The position numbers were made by a program, and so were the translations under genes. A stretch of DNA of 64,000 nt from Gemmatimonadaceae bacterium (lineage in GTDB: Bacteria > Gemmatimonadota > Gemmatimonadetes > Gemmatimonadales > Gemmatimonadaceae), in contig JAICWO010000003.1 in NCBI GenBank assembly GCA_025934775.1, positions 62,001 through 126,000 on the forward strand, in the 5' to 3' direction. Below the pieces are notes generated by a model. The model was not told the DNA's origin. It saw only the letters and a list, made by a program, of their open reading frames with translations, and did no database searches. This document shows, piece by piece, positions 24,467 to 47,841 of the stretch (positions within the stretch are counted from its first letter, which is position 1; every line of letters begins with the position of its first letter).

Positions 24467-24510
24467 TGGCGCGGGGGAACCCTCGGGCGGGCGTCGGCGT
24501 GTTGGTGCGG

Positions 24511-24670
24511 GATCGCGACGTCGCCGGGTGAGACCAGTTTCGAGATTGCGAGATTCGAGATGCGAGATGCGAGTCAGATTGTCAGGCTGCCAAGGCCGAA
24601 ACAGTCTGACTCGCATCTCGTTTCTCGCGTCTGATTTCTCGAAACTGGTCTCGGGTTCGACGTCGAGATC
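24511..24670. repeat. Dispersed palindromic element, copy 1
   Basis: The core is bounded by GAGACCAGTTTCGAGA (24530-24545) and its exact reverse complement (24637-24652). Inside, cgagatgcgagtcaga (24563-24578) pairs perfectly with 24605-24620. Outside, GATCGCGACGTCG and CGACGTCGAGATC extend the palindrome. A second copy with the same ends lies at 28632-28789. It sits between the S9 gene and a convergent gene, codes for nothing I can see, and resembles a REP/REPIN or MITE-like sequence. Confidence 0.8.
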
Positions 24671-40671: not shown

Positions 40672-40714
40672 CCTTGCCACTCTCCACTCTCTACTCTTCA
40701 CTCTCCGCGGGTTC
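40672..40714 (+). promoter_or_regulatory. CT-rich leader upstream of isocitrate dehydrogenase
   Basis: The sequence just before the start is built from cactctcc-type heptads (ccactctccactctctactc and variants) and has no Shine-Dalgarno sequence. The same wording precedes argF at 405-435. Its conservation upstream of two unrelated metabolic genes suggests a shared regulatory or repeat origin. Confidence 0.45.
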
Positions 40715-43304: not shown

Positions 43305-44477
43305 ATGCTCGACTTCTACAACATCGACAGCCTGCTCTCCGAAGAGGAGTGCGCGATCCGCGACAGCGTGCGCCAATTCGTCGACGAGCGCGTCTTGCCC
43401 ATCATCGGCAAGTGCTTCGTCGACGGCCGGTTCCCGAAGGAGATCATCCCAGAGATGGCGGAGCTCGGCGTCTTCGGCGCGAACCTCCCCGAGGAATACG
43501 GCTGCGCGGGGCTGAGCAACGTCGCGTACGGCCTGATCAACCAGGAGCTCGAGCGCGGCGACTCCGGCGTTCGCTCGTTCGCGAGCGTTCAGAGCTCGCT
43601 CGCCATGTACCCGATCTACGCCTTCGGCAGCGATGAGCAAAAGCAGAAGTATCTGCCGCGCATGGCGAAGGCCGAGGTCATCGGGTGCTTCGGATTGACG
43701 GAACCGGACTACGGATCGAATCCGTCCGGTATGATCACGATGGCGCGCGAGCACAAGGACGGCACCTGGATCCTGAACGGCGGGAAGATGTGGATCACGA
43801 ACGGATCCACCGCGCACATCGCCGTCGTGTGGGCGAAGACGAACGGCGACACGAGCGATAAGTCGATCCGCGGCTTCATCGTCCCGACCGACAGCACGGG
43901 ATTCCAGGCGAAGGACCAGAAGGGCAAATTGTCGCTCCGCGCGAGCGACACGAGCGAACTGGTATTTCAGGATGTTGAACTCCCCGCTGACGCGATCCTT
44001 CCGCGCTCCGGCGGCCTCAAGAGCCCGCTGATGTGCCTGACGCAGGCGCGCTACGGCATCTCCTGGGGCGCGATCGGAGCCGCGATGGCCTGCTTCGAGG
44101 AAGCGCTCGAGTACGCGAAGAACCGCATCATGTTCGACCGGCCGATCGCGGGCTTCCAGATCCAGCAAGAGCGGCTCGCCGACATGCTGACCGAGATCGT
44201 GAAGGCGCAGCTCGTGTCATTGCACCTGGGCCGGCTCAAGGACGCGGGCACGTTCACACCGCAGCAAGTCTCGCTCGCCAAACGGAACAACGTGAGCATG
44301 GCCACCGACGTGGCGCGCGAAGCGCGCCGGCTGCTCGGCGCGAACGGGATTCTCGCCGAGTACGCGTCGATGCGCCACATGGAGAATCTCGAGAGCGTCT
44401 ACACGTACGAAGGGACTCATGACGTCCACTCGCTCGTGCTCGGGCAGGCGATCACGGGGCTCAGCGCCTTCAAATAA
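43305..44477 (+). CDS. gcdH: Acyl-CoA dehydrogenase, glutaryl-CoA dehydrogenase-like
   Basis: A 390-residue flavoenzyme that oxidises an acyl-CoA and hands electrons to ETF. The pattern is the glutaryl-CoA type: EERDSGVRSF-like ELERGDSGVRSFASVQSSL, FGLTEPDYGSNPSGM, GGKMWITNGSTAHIAVVWA, and the C-terminal TYEGTHDVHSLVLGQAITGLSAF. The catalytic base is Glu369 in TYEGTHD. Glutaryl-CoA dehydrogenases also decarboxylate the product to crotonyl-CoA in lysine and tryptophan breakdown; a broader acyl-CoA substrate cannot be excluded. The matching etfB-etfA-etfD genes lie 4.4 kb downstream. A repeat array begins 17 bp after its stop. Confidence 0.88.
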   Translation: MLDFYNIDSLLSEEECAIRDSVRQFVDERVLPIIGKCFVDGRFPKEIIPEMAELGVFGANLPEEYGCAGLSNVAYGLINQELERGDSGVRSFASVQSSLAMYPIYAFGSDEQKQKYLPRMAKAEVIGCFGLTEPDYGSNPSGMITMAREHKDGTWILNGGKMWITNGSTAHIAVVWAKTNGDTSDKSIRGFIVPTDSTGFQAKDQKGKLSLRASDTSELVFQDVELPADAILPRSGGLKSPLMCLTQARYGISWGAIGAAMACFEEALEYAKNRIMFDRPIAGFQIQQERLADMLTEIVKAQLVSLHLGRLKDAGTFTPQQVSLAKRNNVSMATDVAREARRLLGANGILAEYASMRHMENLESVYTYEGTHDVHSLVLGQAITGLSAFK

Positions 44478-44493
44478 CGCGCATTTGGCGACG

Positions 44494-45096
44494 AACGCCG
44501 CAAACAACTAACGCCGCAAACAACTAACGCCGCTAACAACTAACGCCGCTAACGCCGCTAACAACGAACCGCGCAAACAACCAACGGCGCTGACCTCCAA
44601 ACGGCGCTGCCTTCCAAACGGCGCTGACTTCCAAACAGCGCCAACTTCCGAACGGCGCGGCGCTTCCAAACGGCGCGGCACGAACGGCTGCGCCGTTCGG
44701 CAGAGACATTACGGCGCAAGGGACACACGGCGGGCGACGGCGCAGCGGCGAGCGGCGCCGAACGGCGCAACGGCGAGCGGCGCCGAACGGCGCAACGGCG
44801 AGCGGCGCCGAACGGCGCAACGGCGAGCGGCGCCGAACGGCGCAACGGCGAGCGGCGCGTAACCTCGCCACGGCACACGGCGAGTGACGGGGCAAGCTGC
44901 CGCGGGTCGCGCGCGCAGCGTCGCGCCCGCCCCGCGGTTTGCCGTTGCGCGGTTGGTTGTTTGCGCCGTTATGGGTCTGCCGCAGGCTGCGCCGTTTGGA
45001 GGTCAGCGCTGTTCGGAAGGCAGCGCCGTCTGGAAGTCAGCGCCGTTCGGAAGTTGGCGCAGTTTGGAGGTCAGCGCCGTTCGTTGTTTGCGCCGC
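44494..45096. repeat. Compound noncoding repeat array of 16-, 17- and 25-bp units
   Basis: Between gcdH and the ADOP gene, about 600 bp consist almost wholly of short repeats. First come 16-bp units near aacgccgcaaacaact (44494-44582, about five copies). Then 17-bp units of the type cggcgctgacttccaaa run in one orientation (44585-44652, four copies plus decayed ones to about 44680). The 25-bp tandem block follows (separate entry). Finally 17-bp units in the opposite orientation, ttcggaagtcagcgccg type, occupy 44995-45079 with a decayed sixth to 45096. The 17-bp phase rules out a repetitive protein. No gene or promoter with support lies inside. I know no named family for it. Confidence 0.85.
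44746..44858. repeat. 25-bp tandem repeat, four full copies plus part of a fifth
   Basis: Units begin at 44746, 44771, 44796 and 44821, each exactly 25 bp starting cggcgagcggcg and ending aacggcgcaa; a truncated fifth occupies 44846-44858. The copies are identical, which points to recent expansion by slippage or recombination. Each unit has a ggcgcc self-complementary core. Confidence 0.95.
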
Positions 45097-45117
45097 CAGC
45101 TGTTCGGAATTTGTCGT

Positions 45118-45138
45118 ATACCTTGTTCACTTAGGTAT
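45118..45138 (+). promoter_or_regulatory. Possible PadR-type operator at the ADOP promoter
   Basis: ATACC (45118-45122) and GGTAT (45134-45138) form an inverted repeat with an 11-bp spacer, 40 bp before the permease start. The first arm is also part of GTATACC, which may be a -10 box; a related GTATACCTTG lies before the S9 gene at 21731. A PadR repressor encoded just downstream makes an operator plausible. Confidence 0.4.
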
Positions 45139-45177
45139 TCGCGCGCATATTGCCCCCCGTCTCCACGAGGCGGGCGA

Positions 45178-47841
45178 ATGAAGCGGCTGTTCCGACTCAG
45201 CCTGGGTGAACGCGGCGTCCGCCGCGATGTGGCGAGCGAAATCCAGTTCCATATCGAGATGCGCACGCGCGAGCTGATCGAGGCCGGCGTCGATCCCAGC
45301 GCCGCCCGCGAGCAAGCTATCGCCACCTTCGGCGATGTCGGCGCCATCGAGGCCGAGTGCCGGAGCGAAACGCGACAGCGCGTGCGCACGGCGACCTGGC
45401 GCGAGGTCGGCGACTCCATCGTGCAAGACGTCCGCTACGCCGCTCGGACGCTCGCCCGAACGCCCGGCTTCACGATCACCGTGCTCGTCACCCTCGCGCT
45501 CGGGATCGGCGCGAACAGCGCGGTCTTCAGCATGGTGAACGGACTGCTGCTCAAGCACCCGCCGTACGCGAACTCGGATCGCATGGTCGTGCTGCAGCGG
45601 CCCGTCGCATCGCTGAGCGTTGCTGATGTCGGTTTCGCCGCGCCCGAAGTCGCGGACTTCCGCTCGCAGACACCGTCGCTCGACGGCGTCGCTGAATACC
45701 ACTCGATGTCGTTCGACCTCCTCGGCCATGGCGAGCCTCGGCGCGTGCAGACCGGCGTCGTATCGTCGGGGTTCTTCGATCTGCTGGGCGTGAAGCCGCT
45801 CCTCGGACGCACCTTCGCGCGCGGGGAGGATCAAACGGGCGCCGTGCCGGTGCTCGTGCTCAGCTACGCGTTCTGGGTCAACCAGCTCGGCGCGGACTCG
45901 TCGATCATCGGGAAGACGTTCACGATGAACGACCGGCAGCACACCGTGATCGGCGTCCTGCCGCCGCTCCCGAACTACCCGGACCAGAACGACGTCTGGA
46001 TGCCGATCTCGTCCTGTCCGTTCCGCTCATCGGCGCGCATGACCACGATGCGGTCCATGCGGATGCTCAGTCTCTTCGCGCGCACCAAGCCGGGCGCGAC
46101 GATCACCGATGTGCGAAGCGATCTCGCGACCGTGGGTGCGCGCTTGCACGCGCAGTTCCGCGACGACTACAAGGGCATCCCCGACGAGAAGGTCAGCGCC
46201 ACTCCGATCACGAGCGCGATGAGCGAAGGGGCCGCACCGTCCGTGTTGCTGCTCTTCGGCATCGCGGGGCTCGTCCTGCTCATCGCGTGCGCCAACGTCG
46301 CGCACCTCACGATGGCGCGGCATCTCCGGCGCCAGCGCGAGATGGCGATTCGCTCCGCGCTCGGCGCCGGTCGGCGGCGGGTGTTGCGGCAACTGCTCAC
46401 CGAGAGCGTGCTCCTCTCGCTGGCCGGCGGTCTTCTCGGGCTCGCGCTCGCGGGACCGGGCATCAGCGCCATTGCCCACATCGTCGCGCGGCTCACGGCG
46501 CGCGGCAACGAGATCGCGCTCGACTGGCGCGTGGTGGGCTTCACGCTCGCGCTGTCGGTCGCGACCGGCGTCTTCTTCGGCGTGCTGCCGGCGCTCACCG
46601 ATGGCCGAGATCTCGTCACGCGCCTTCGCGACGGCGGCGCGACGACCGCCGGCGGCGGCAAGCTGCGCGCGCGATCCGCGCTCGTGATTGGCGAGGTGGC
46701 GCTCGCGTCGGTCGTGCTGGTCGGCGCGGGGCTCATGATTCGCAGCTTCGCGCACCTGCTCCGCGTCGACACGGGCTACGATCCGCAGAACGTGGTCACG
46801 GCGCACGTCGATCTGAACTGGACGAAGTACAACAACGGACAAGTCGTCCGCAATTTCGCGAACGCATTCATCGATCGTCTGCACGCCAGCTCCGGCGTCA
46901 CCGCAGTAGCGGTGGCCAACGAGTTTCCCGCGAGCAGCAGCTCGCCGCAGAATCAGCTCCTGTTCAGCATCCGCGGCCGCCCGGCGCCCGACAGCGCGCG
47001 CATGCCGCACGCGGAGCTGAACTACGTCTCGCCCGAGTACTTCCGCACGATCGGCGTGCCCGTGCTCTCCGGGCGCAGCTTCACCGCGGATGACCGGGAC
47101 ACCGCGAGCGTGGTCGTCGTGGTCAGCCGCTCGCTCGCCGAACGCTATTTCCCCGGCGCGAACGCCGTGGGCAAGCAGATCACCACCGCCAGCCAGGGGA
47201 CGACGTTGACGATCGTCGGCGTCGTCGGCGACGTGCGCGAGTTCGGGCCGGCCGCCGACGTACCGGAGCAGATCTACGAGCCGTTCAACGCCCTCTCGGT
47301 GCGCGACATTCGCGTCCTCGTCCGGAGCCGCGGCAGCGCCGGTGCGATGATGAACCGCATCCGCGACGTGGTGCACGAGCTCGACGCCGAGCAGCCGGTG
47401 ATCGAGGTGCGCACGCTGGCGCAGGCGCGCGACGAGGTGATCGCCGCGCCGCGGCTGATCACGCTGCTCCTCGGTCTGTTCGGCGCGGTGGCGCTGATCA
47501 TCGCCGCCGCGGGCCTCGGCGGCGTGATGGCGTACTCGGTCGGCCAGCGGCTGCAGGAGTTCGGCATTCGCGTGGCGCTCGGCGCGGATCGATCGAGCAT
47601 CCTGCGGCTCGTCGTGGGGCAGGGCGTGCGGCTCGTCGTCGCCGGACTGCTCATCGGCGCCTTCGCCGCGCGTGGGGTCGATCAACTCATGTCCAAGGTG
47701 CTGGTCGGCGCGGAGGGCGGCGAAGCGCTCACCTACGCCGCCGTGGCGCTGGTGTTCGTGGCCGTCGCGGTGGTGGCGTGCCTCGCGCCCGCCCGGCGCG
47801 CCACGGCGGTCGACCCGGTGACCGCGTTCAAGGCATCATAA
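45178..47841 (+). CDS. ADOP-family ABC transporter permease
   Basis: An 887-residue permease of the 'acidobacterial duplicated orphan permease' type: no ATPase is encoded beside it. An N-terminal helical prefix (GVRRDVASEIQFHIEMRTRE, DPSAAREQAIATFGD) precedes two MacB-like periplasmic domains and two FtsX-like membrane units. The first unit starts at FTITVLVTLALGIGANSAVF, and helices near LLLFGIAGLVLLIACANVAH and LLGLFGAVALIIAAAGLGGV mark the others. Such proteins probably act in envelope-linked mechanotransmission or export, like MacB. Start ATG 45178 is the first in a frame that gives the prefix domain; the frame upstream runs through the repeat array. It is followed by a PadR gene 21 bp downstream, the standard pairing. 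Confidence 0.93.
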   Translation: MKRLFRLSLGERGVRRDVASEIQFHIEMRTRELIEAGVDPSAAREQAIATFGDVGAIEAECRSETRQRVRTATWREVGDSIVQDVRYAARTLARTPGFTITVLVTLALGIGANSAVFSMVNGLLLKHPPYANSDRMVVLQRPVASLSVADVGFAAPEVADFRSQTPSLDGVAEYHSMSFDLLGHGEPRRVQTGVVSSGFFDLLGVKPLLGRTFARGEDQTGAVPVLVLSYAFWVNQLGADSSIIGKTFTMNDRQHTVIGVLPPLPNYPDQNDVWMPISSCPFRSSARMTTMRSMRMLSLFARTKPGATITDVRSDLATVGARLHAQFRDDYKGIPDEKVSATPITSAMSEGAAPSVLLLFGIAGLVLLIACANVAHLTMARHLRRQREMAIRSALGAGRRRVLRQLLTESVLLSLAGGLLGLALAGPGISAIAHIVARLTARGNEIALDWRVVGFTLALSVATGVFFGVLPALTDGRDLVTRLRDGGATTAGGGKLRARSALVIGEVALASVVLVGAGLMIRSFAHLLRVDTGYDPQNVVTAHVDLNWTKYNNGQVVRNFANAFIDRLHASSGVTAVAVANEFPASSSSPQNQLLFSIRGRPAPDSARMPHAELNYVSPEYFRTIGVPVLSGRSFTADDRDTASVVVVVSRSLAERYFPGANAVGKQITTASQGTTLTIVGVVGDVREFGPAADVPEQIYEPFNALSVRDIRVLVRSRGSAGAMMNRIRDVVHELDAEQPVIEVRTLAQARDEVIAAPRLITLLLGLFGAVALIIAAAGLGGVMAYSVGQRLQEFGIRVALGADRSSILRLVVGQGVRLVVAGLLIGAFAARGVDQLMSKVLVGAEGGEALTYAAVALVFVAVAVVACLAPARRATAVDPVTAFKAS

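Follow-up and report, generated by a model that had tools for sequence, protein, structure and literature searches.

A large gene-less repeat palindrome in a Gemmatimonadaceae genome, probably an IVP-less member of a dispersed family of IVS-like elements

The DNA analyzed here (the window, a stretch of 64,000 nucleotides from a Gemmatimonadaceae bacterium) contains an array of short repeat units between a gcdH-like gene and an ADOP-type permease gene. This locus raises the question of what kind of element such an array represents and whether it is tied to its two neighbors. Tandem and inverted repeat searches revealed that the predicted array of 16-, 17-, and 25-bp units is real and correctly located (Table 1), and the related acggcgc cores of the units were confirmed. 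The 16-bp unit is repeated 3.8 times at 44494 to 44553 (97% match), the 17-bp unit 5.5 times in the left block, and the 25-bp unit 4.9 times (98%). Units of 17 bp in the opposite orientation were detected at 44984 to 45083, as had been predicted, and the two 17-bp blocks mirror each other as inverted arms of 110 nt (44560 to 44669 and 44995 to 45104) that are 80% complementary; a core of 59 nt is 90% complementary. The whole array forms a single mirrored structure, A-B-C-D-centre-D'-C'-B'-A'. Folded as RNA, it reached -394.5 kcal/mol, compared to a mean of -312.7 (standard deviation, 6.5) for 20 dinucleotide-preserving shuffles (z = -12.6). The suggestion of a large cruciform is compatible with this structure, which could form one giant hairpin or cruciform; a binding array, the other role suggested, is possible. 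The array is intergenic, lying between two protein genes, and is noncoding, as predicted. It also differs from a CRISPR, as had been stated, since its units run head to tail with no unique spacers between them. A search of Rfam with positions 43900 to 45700 gave no match, and neither did a search of plasmid DNA with the array.

Table 1. Positions of the repeat blocks, neighboring genes, and second palindrome in the window
Feature	Positions	Strand	Evidence
Whole gene-less palindromic element, A-B-C-D-centre-D'-C'-B'-A'	44494..45096	.	repeats, relatives, RNA fold (z -12.6)
Outer left block A, 16-bp units AACGCCGCAAACAACT and variants	44494..44582	+	TRF
Left block B, 17-bp units AACGGCGCTGACTTCCA; unit also in arms of the IVP-bearing C7 copy	44583..44676	+	
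Left block C with small internal hairpin GAACGGCTGCGCCGTTC; common to C7 and C24 copies	44677..44736	+	
Block D, 25-bp units, about 4.9 copies	44737..44858	+	TRF
Centre (loop), no gene here; site of the IVP gene in the C7 relative	44859..44946	.	
Right block C'	44947..44988	-	
Right block B', 17-bp units reversed	44989..45083	-	
Remnant of outer right block A'	45074..45096	-	inverted repeat, repeat family analysis
Left neighbor, acyl-CoA dehydrogenase gene (gcdH-like), outside element	43305..44477	+	
Right neighbor, MacB_PCD/FtsX permease gene (ADOP type), outside element	45178..47841	+	
Second palindrome family, gene-less copy, ends GATCGCGACGTCG ... CGACGTCGCGATC	24510..24670	.	

The array ends about 80 bp upstream of the ATG at 45178, which is the likely start of the permease (887 amino acids). 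Upstream of this ATG, the permease reading frame stays open into the array, with a GTG at 44884 (985 amino acids), so that automatic annotation could place the gene start within the repeat. The proximity of the array to the ATG would suit a role as a local set of binding sites for regulation of the ADOP permease gene. This explanation is very improbable because relatives of the array adjoin gene pairs unrelated to gcdH/ADOP and because the sister genome G003, which belongs to the same genus, retains the gcdH-ADOP pair but has no array in the roughly 165 bp that separate the two genes. The same two observations leave a special role at the permease promoter unsupported and show that the array is neither unique nor tied to gcdH/ADOP. 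In the other relatives examined, a different gene follows gcdH and the array is absent. Judged from these sequences, the array-free junction in G003 is consistent with an insertion in the lineage of the window, the alternative being a loss in G003.

The search for the repeat units elsewhere in the genome and in relatives, which had been proposed as a check, revealed similar palindromes at six more places in the genome (C12, three in C20, C24, and C7), as well as gene-less palindromes of the 17-bp type in G005 and G024, where they occur alongside gene-bearing relatives. The number of units differs among the copies. The best match to the left arm of the window array is an arm of the C12 copy (score, 172), and the right arm is best matched by one in a C20 copy (183). 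Aligned with each other, the two arms of the window array score only 76, compared to 184 for the two arms of the C7 copy. These scores are consistent with the copying of whole elements followed by drift. Strong gene-less arrays of the window type were confined to G000, G005, and G024, all of which have IVP proteins of the matching clade; G001 has a matching-clade IVP protein, yet few array matches. Repeats are hard to assemble, and the genome is a draft of 47 contigs, but related palindromes are embedded in several long contigs and recur in other genomes, which reduces an assembly artefact to a negligible probability.

Analysis of the C7 copy revealed what the copy in the window lacks. The centre of the window copy contains no ORF. 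In the C7 copy, near-identical arms flank an intact ORF that matches PF05635 (23S_rRNA_IVP) with 61.8 bits (cutoff, 33.8) and also TIGR02436 (four helix bundle protein). Its nearest structurally solved relative is XCC0516 (Protein Data Bank entry: 2GSC; E value, 1.6e-4), whose four-helix bundles are reported to assemble into a homopentamer (PMC4990558). The link to IVP was out of reach from the window alone because it is visible only in this relative elsewhere in the genome. The genome contains seven PF05635 genes, and most of the others are also flanked by inverted arrays, with units such as CGTGGAC, GAGAGTG, and GAGACGC.

Two smaller repeats were observed in the window. Positions 360 to 430 contain an inverted hairpin of GAGAGTG-type heptamers (arms at 360 to 388 and 402 to 430, 86% complementary), whose unit resembles the one repeated in the arms of an IVP element (C12:122018); this hairpin is probably another gene-less relative. 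A short CCACTCT tandem array with no inverted partner nearby is located at 40677 to 40706, directly before a gene start.

A second palindrome family, of about 165 bp with common ends (Table 1), is represented by at least ten copies in the genome, and ten full gene-less copies were aligned. It includes one gene-bearing member (C47:322761-323337), which is one of the PF05635 loci of the genome. Together with the family of the C7 copy, there are therefore two families, each with members that carry the gene and members that do not. Base-pair covariation in the second family is low (two-sided change in 3 of 54 pairs), and much of the sequence itself is conserved. Inspection of its copies by eye revealed no obvious target-site duplication, and an exact point of insertion was not seen; the array between gcdH and ADOP has no clear-cut ends. 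By an ORF heuristic, eight of the ten copies appear to lie between convergent genes, a placement that fits either a terminator role or survival where no gene is harmed.

The main rival explanation follows from this placement. It holds that the hairpin is maintained as a two-way terminator or as an RNA structure at gene 3' ends that acts against read-through and decay, that the IVP protein binds this RNA, and that mobility is incidental. Besides the convergent placement, the start of elements within tens of bases of stop codons and the very stable fold speak for such a role. The window, C12, C20a, and C7 copies, however, are located between tandem genes and the C20c copy between divergent genes, insertions would also be least harmful at 3' positions, and neither the gene in the loop nor the tracking of this gene by the arm class (see below) is explained. 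A terminator or 3'-end function as the basis of these elements is accordingly rather unlikely, with some chance of being correct.

The association of IVP genes with mirrored repeats was found to be general. Inverted arms scoring at least 17.5 were found at 27 of 30 PF05635 loci of Gemmatimonadota; among about 500 random window placements, which served as the control for this threshold, the mean score was 11.5, the 99th percentile 17.4, and the maximum 19.5. One scan of GTDB genomes then yielded 80 loci from many phyla, which are the best hits of one query and not a random sample; the query was a closer IVP alignment, the first alignment having been too divergent. Inverted tandem arms above the 99th percentile of the controls were present at 56 of 73 IVP loci, compared to 5 of 438 matched in-locus placements, and 17 of the 73 loci fell below the control threshold. 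The in-locus placements were adopted because a control with mispaired flanks was inflated by loci that share a gene pair (L075/L019 and L092/L096). Of these 56 loci, 49 had a best arm period of 7 and the remaining 7 a period of 8; G outnumbered C in the 5' arm at all 56. Clear arms were also detected at five of seven cyanobacterial plasmid IVP genes examined. AGGGAGT units flank both sides of a cyanobacterial-plasmid IVP gene between two ribonucleotide-reductase genes; the heptamer-armed IVP gene on plasmid pNe_5 of Nostoc edaphicum (L251) was observed in such a position.

The class of arm follows the ancestry of the protein. When 65 Gemmatimonadota proteins were placed on a tree, the two classes of arm (7- to 9-bp units, or units of 13 bp and more; set partly by eye, with 15 rows of unclear arms excluded) required 4 changes, compared to a mean of 11.6 in shuffles, and none of 500 shuffles was as low. 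Ten proteins with long arms, including that of C7 and its relatives in G001, G005, and G024, form one branch with a support of 96; within it, the proteins nearest that of C7 have GCGC-based units of 16 to 17 bp. One gene pair is occupied in G000, G003, and G015, with units that differ between the species and match between the arms within each. Either the two arms may have changed jointly or different elements may have inserted repeatedly.

The IVP genes of L019, L075, and L089 were observed at one gene pair and those of L092 and L096 at another. At each pair, the genes come from different species or genera and share one orientation. The heptamers differ among these loci and still match between the two arms of each. 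Inversion of the loop, which high cross-scores had suggested, was considered and dropped, the orientations at the same gene pair being identical.

Tandem repeats are prone to slippage. A satellite grown in this way, with units expanded by replication slippage, arms matched by template switching, and the IVP gene as a passenger with nothing bound to the repeats, would suit the varying unit numbers of the copies and the gene pair at which units differ between species and agree between arms. It gives no account of the same gene family in the loop across phyla, of an arm class that tracks protein ancestry, or of the G-rich 5' arms at 56 of 56 loci, and it is improbable as an explanation of these elements.

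The window array is probably an IVP-less, nonautonomous, MITE-like copy of a dispersed IVS-like palindromic element whose IVP protein recognizes the repeat. Complete members consist of two mirror-image tandem-repeat arms around an S23/IVP four-helix-bundle gene (PF05635, TIGR02436). The IVP protein, whose solved relative 2GSC is a five-membered ring, would bind its own element at the repeats, either in the form of DNA or as the hairpin strand, and this binding would be needed to copy or maintain the element. Copies that lack the gene, including that in the window, would be served in trans. The palindrome, its dispersal, the array-free sister junction, the members with and without the gene, the generality of the arms, and the association of arm class and protein were observed directly and support this reading. 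From them we infer the binding by IVP, the service in trans, and a spread driven by the protein rather than by the host.

The enzymes of better-known small elements were also searched for. A search of the genome, which is 99% complete, with PF01797 for the Y1 transposase (RAYT) gave no match, the same search being positive in 5 of 14 control genomes, and a search of the genome for reverse transcriptase (PF00078) gave no match. The known routes for such small elements are thus not in evidence. The short palindromes scattered between genes would suit a REP/BIME-like element mobilized by RAYT; given the result for PF01797, this explanation has very little to recommend it.

A broader reading extends the preferred one to a class of small elements found throughout the bacteria, each with an S23/IVP ring protein that would read the tandem units of its own palindrome and thereby spread both the copies that encode it and those that lack the gene. 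This extension is tentative, and we hold it for possible and not for likely. By analogy with TRAP and RNA, the repeat strand would perhaps be wound around the five-fold ring, the units read having a period of 7 to 8, or about twice this in the clade of the window. If such a class exists, its satellites or remains would include the heptamer repeats that occur between genes in Xanthomonas and cyanobacteria. Apart from this extension, the results give the S23/IVP family, which is widespread and of unknown function (PMC4990558) and has long been an orphan, a constant companion and likely binding partner in mirrored short tandem repeats, and each IVP protein is predicted to bind its own unit. A statement linking IVP to mirrored repeats was not found in the open-license literature searched and may exist elsewhere. 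These results indicate that the array first described is real, that its local reading was too narrow, and that the wider pattern is the point of interest.

Comparison with known systems revealed partial likeness to several of them. REP/BIME elements with RAYT are likewise intergenic palindromes near gene 3' ends, but the palindromes described here are much larger and have tandem arms, and the genome lacks RAYT. Integron attC sites were considered and set aside for lack of gene cassettes. The Avd proteins of diversity-generating retroelements belong to a homologous four-helix-bundle family, a homology noted previously (PMC10053308), and a relative matched NF033474 weakly, whereas the genome lacks the reverse transcriptase of such retroelements. 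IVP is listed among cas-locus genes (PMC3936711), and the heptamer-armed IVP gene between cas6 and cas4 on plasmid pANA02 of Anabaena sp. 90 (L249) suggests that such cases are insertions. Repeats of 90 and 150 bp, at about 11 copies per 100 kb, have been reported for the Gemmatirosa genome (PMC11237797).

Published heptamer arrays have GGGAATC as the unit in Xanthomonas and GGGGA(C/T)T in Nostoc, and inverted pairs number 70 and 75 in two genomes of Xanthomonas (PMC4692102). These repeats and the cyanobacterial STRR resemble the IVP arms in being G-rich tandem units of 7 bp, often in inverted pairs, and the arms of cyanobacterial plasmid IVP genes are of the heptamer-repeat type. They were described without an IVP gene, the terms S23 and helix bundle being absent from the heptamer-array paper (PMC4692102). 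Units of 7 bp are found in most other IVP arms, whereas those of the window array have 16, 17, and 25 bp. Separate descriptions of puzzling heptamer repeats may be joined by the IVP link. MITEs are likewise short gene-less palindromes dispersed beside a gene-bearing relative, and dispersed gene-less copies with inverted ends were found here; in contrast to the parent of a MITE, the gene-bearing relative encodes IVP (PF05635) and no transposase. No obvious target duplication was seen.

The best-known setting of S23/IVP is the intervening sequence (IVS) present in some 23S rRNA genes, which carries an S23p ORF in Leptospira, Coxiella, and Brucella. Such an IVS resembles the complete members described here in having an inverted-repeat hairpin with an S23/IVP ORF in the loop, an arrangement present in the C7 relative and absent from the window copy. 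In Coxiella, the stem of the IVS measures 28 bp, and two or three GACAGAT heptamers precede the S23p ORF (PMC4990558). Unlike an IVS, the elements lie between protein genes, have long tandem-array arms, and occur in many copies, most of them gene-less. In its working, the element is most like the 23S rRNA IVS, but by location it is no IVS.
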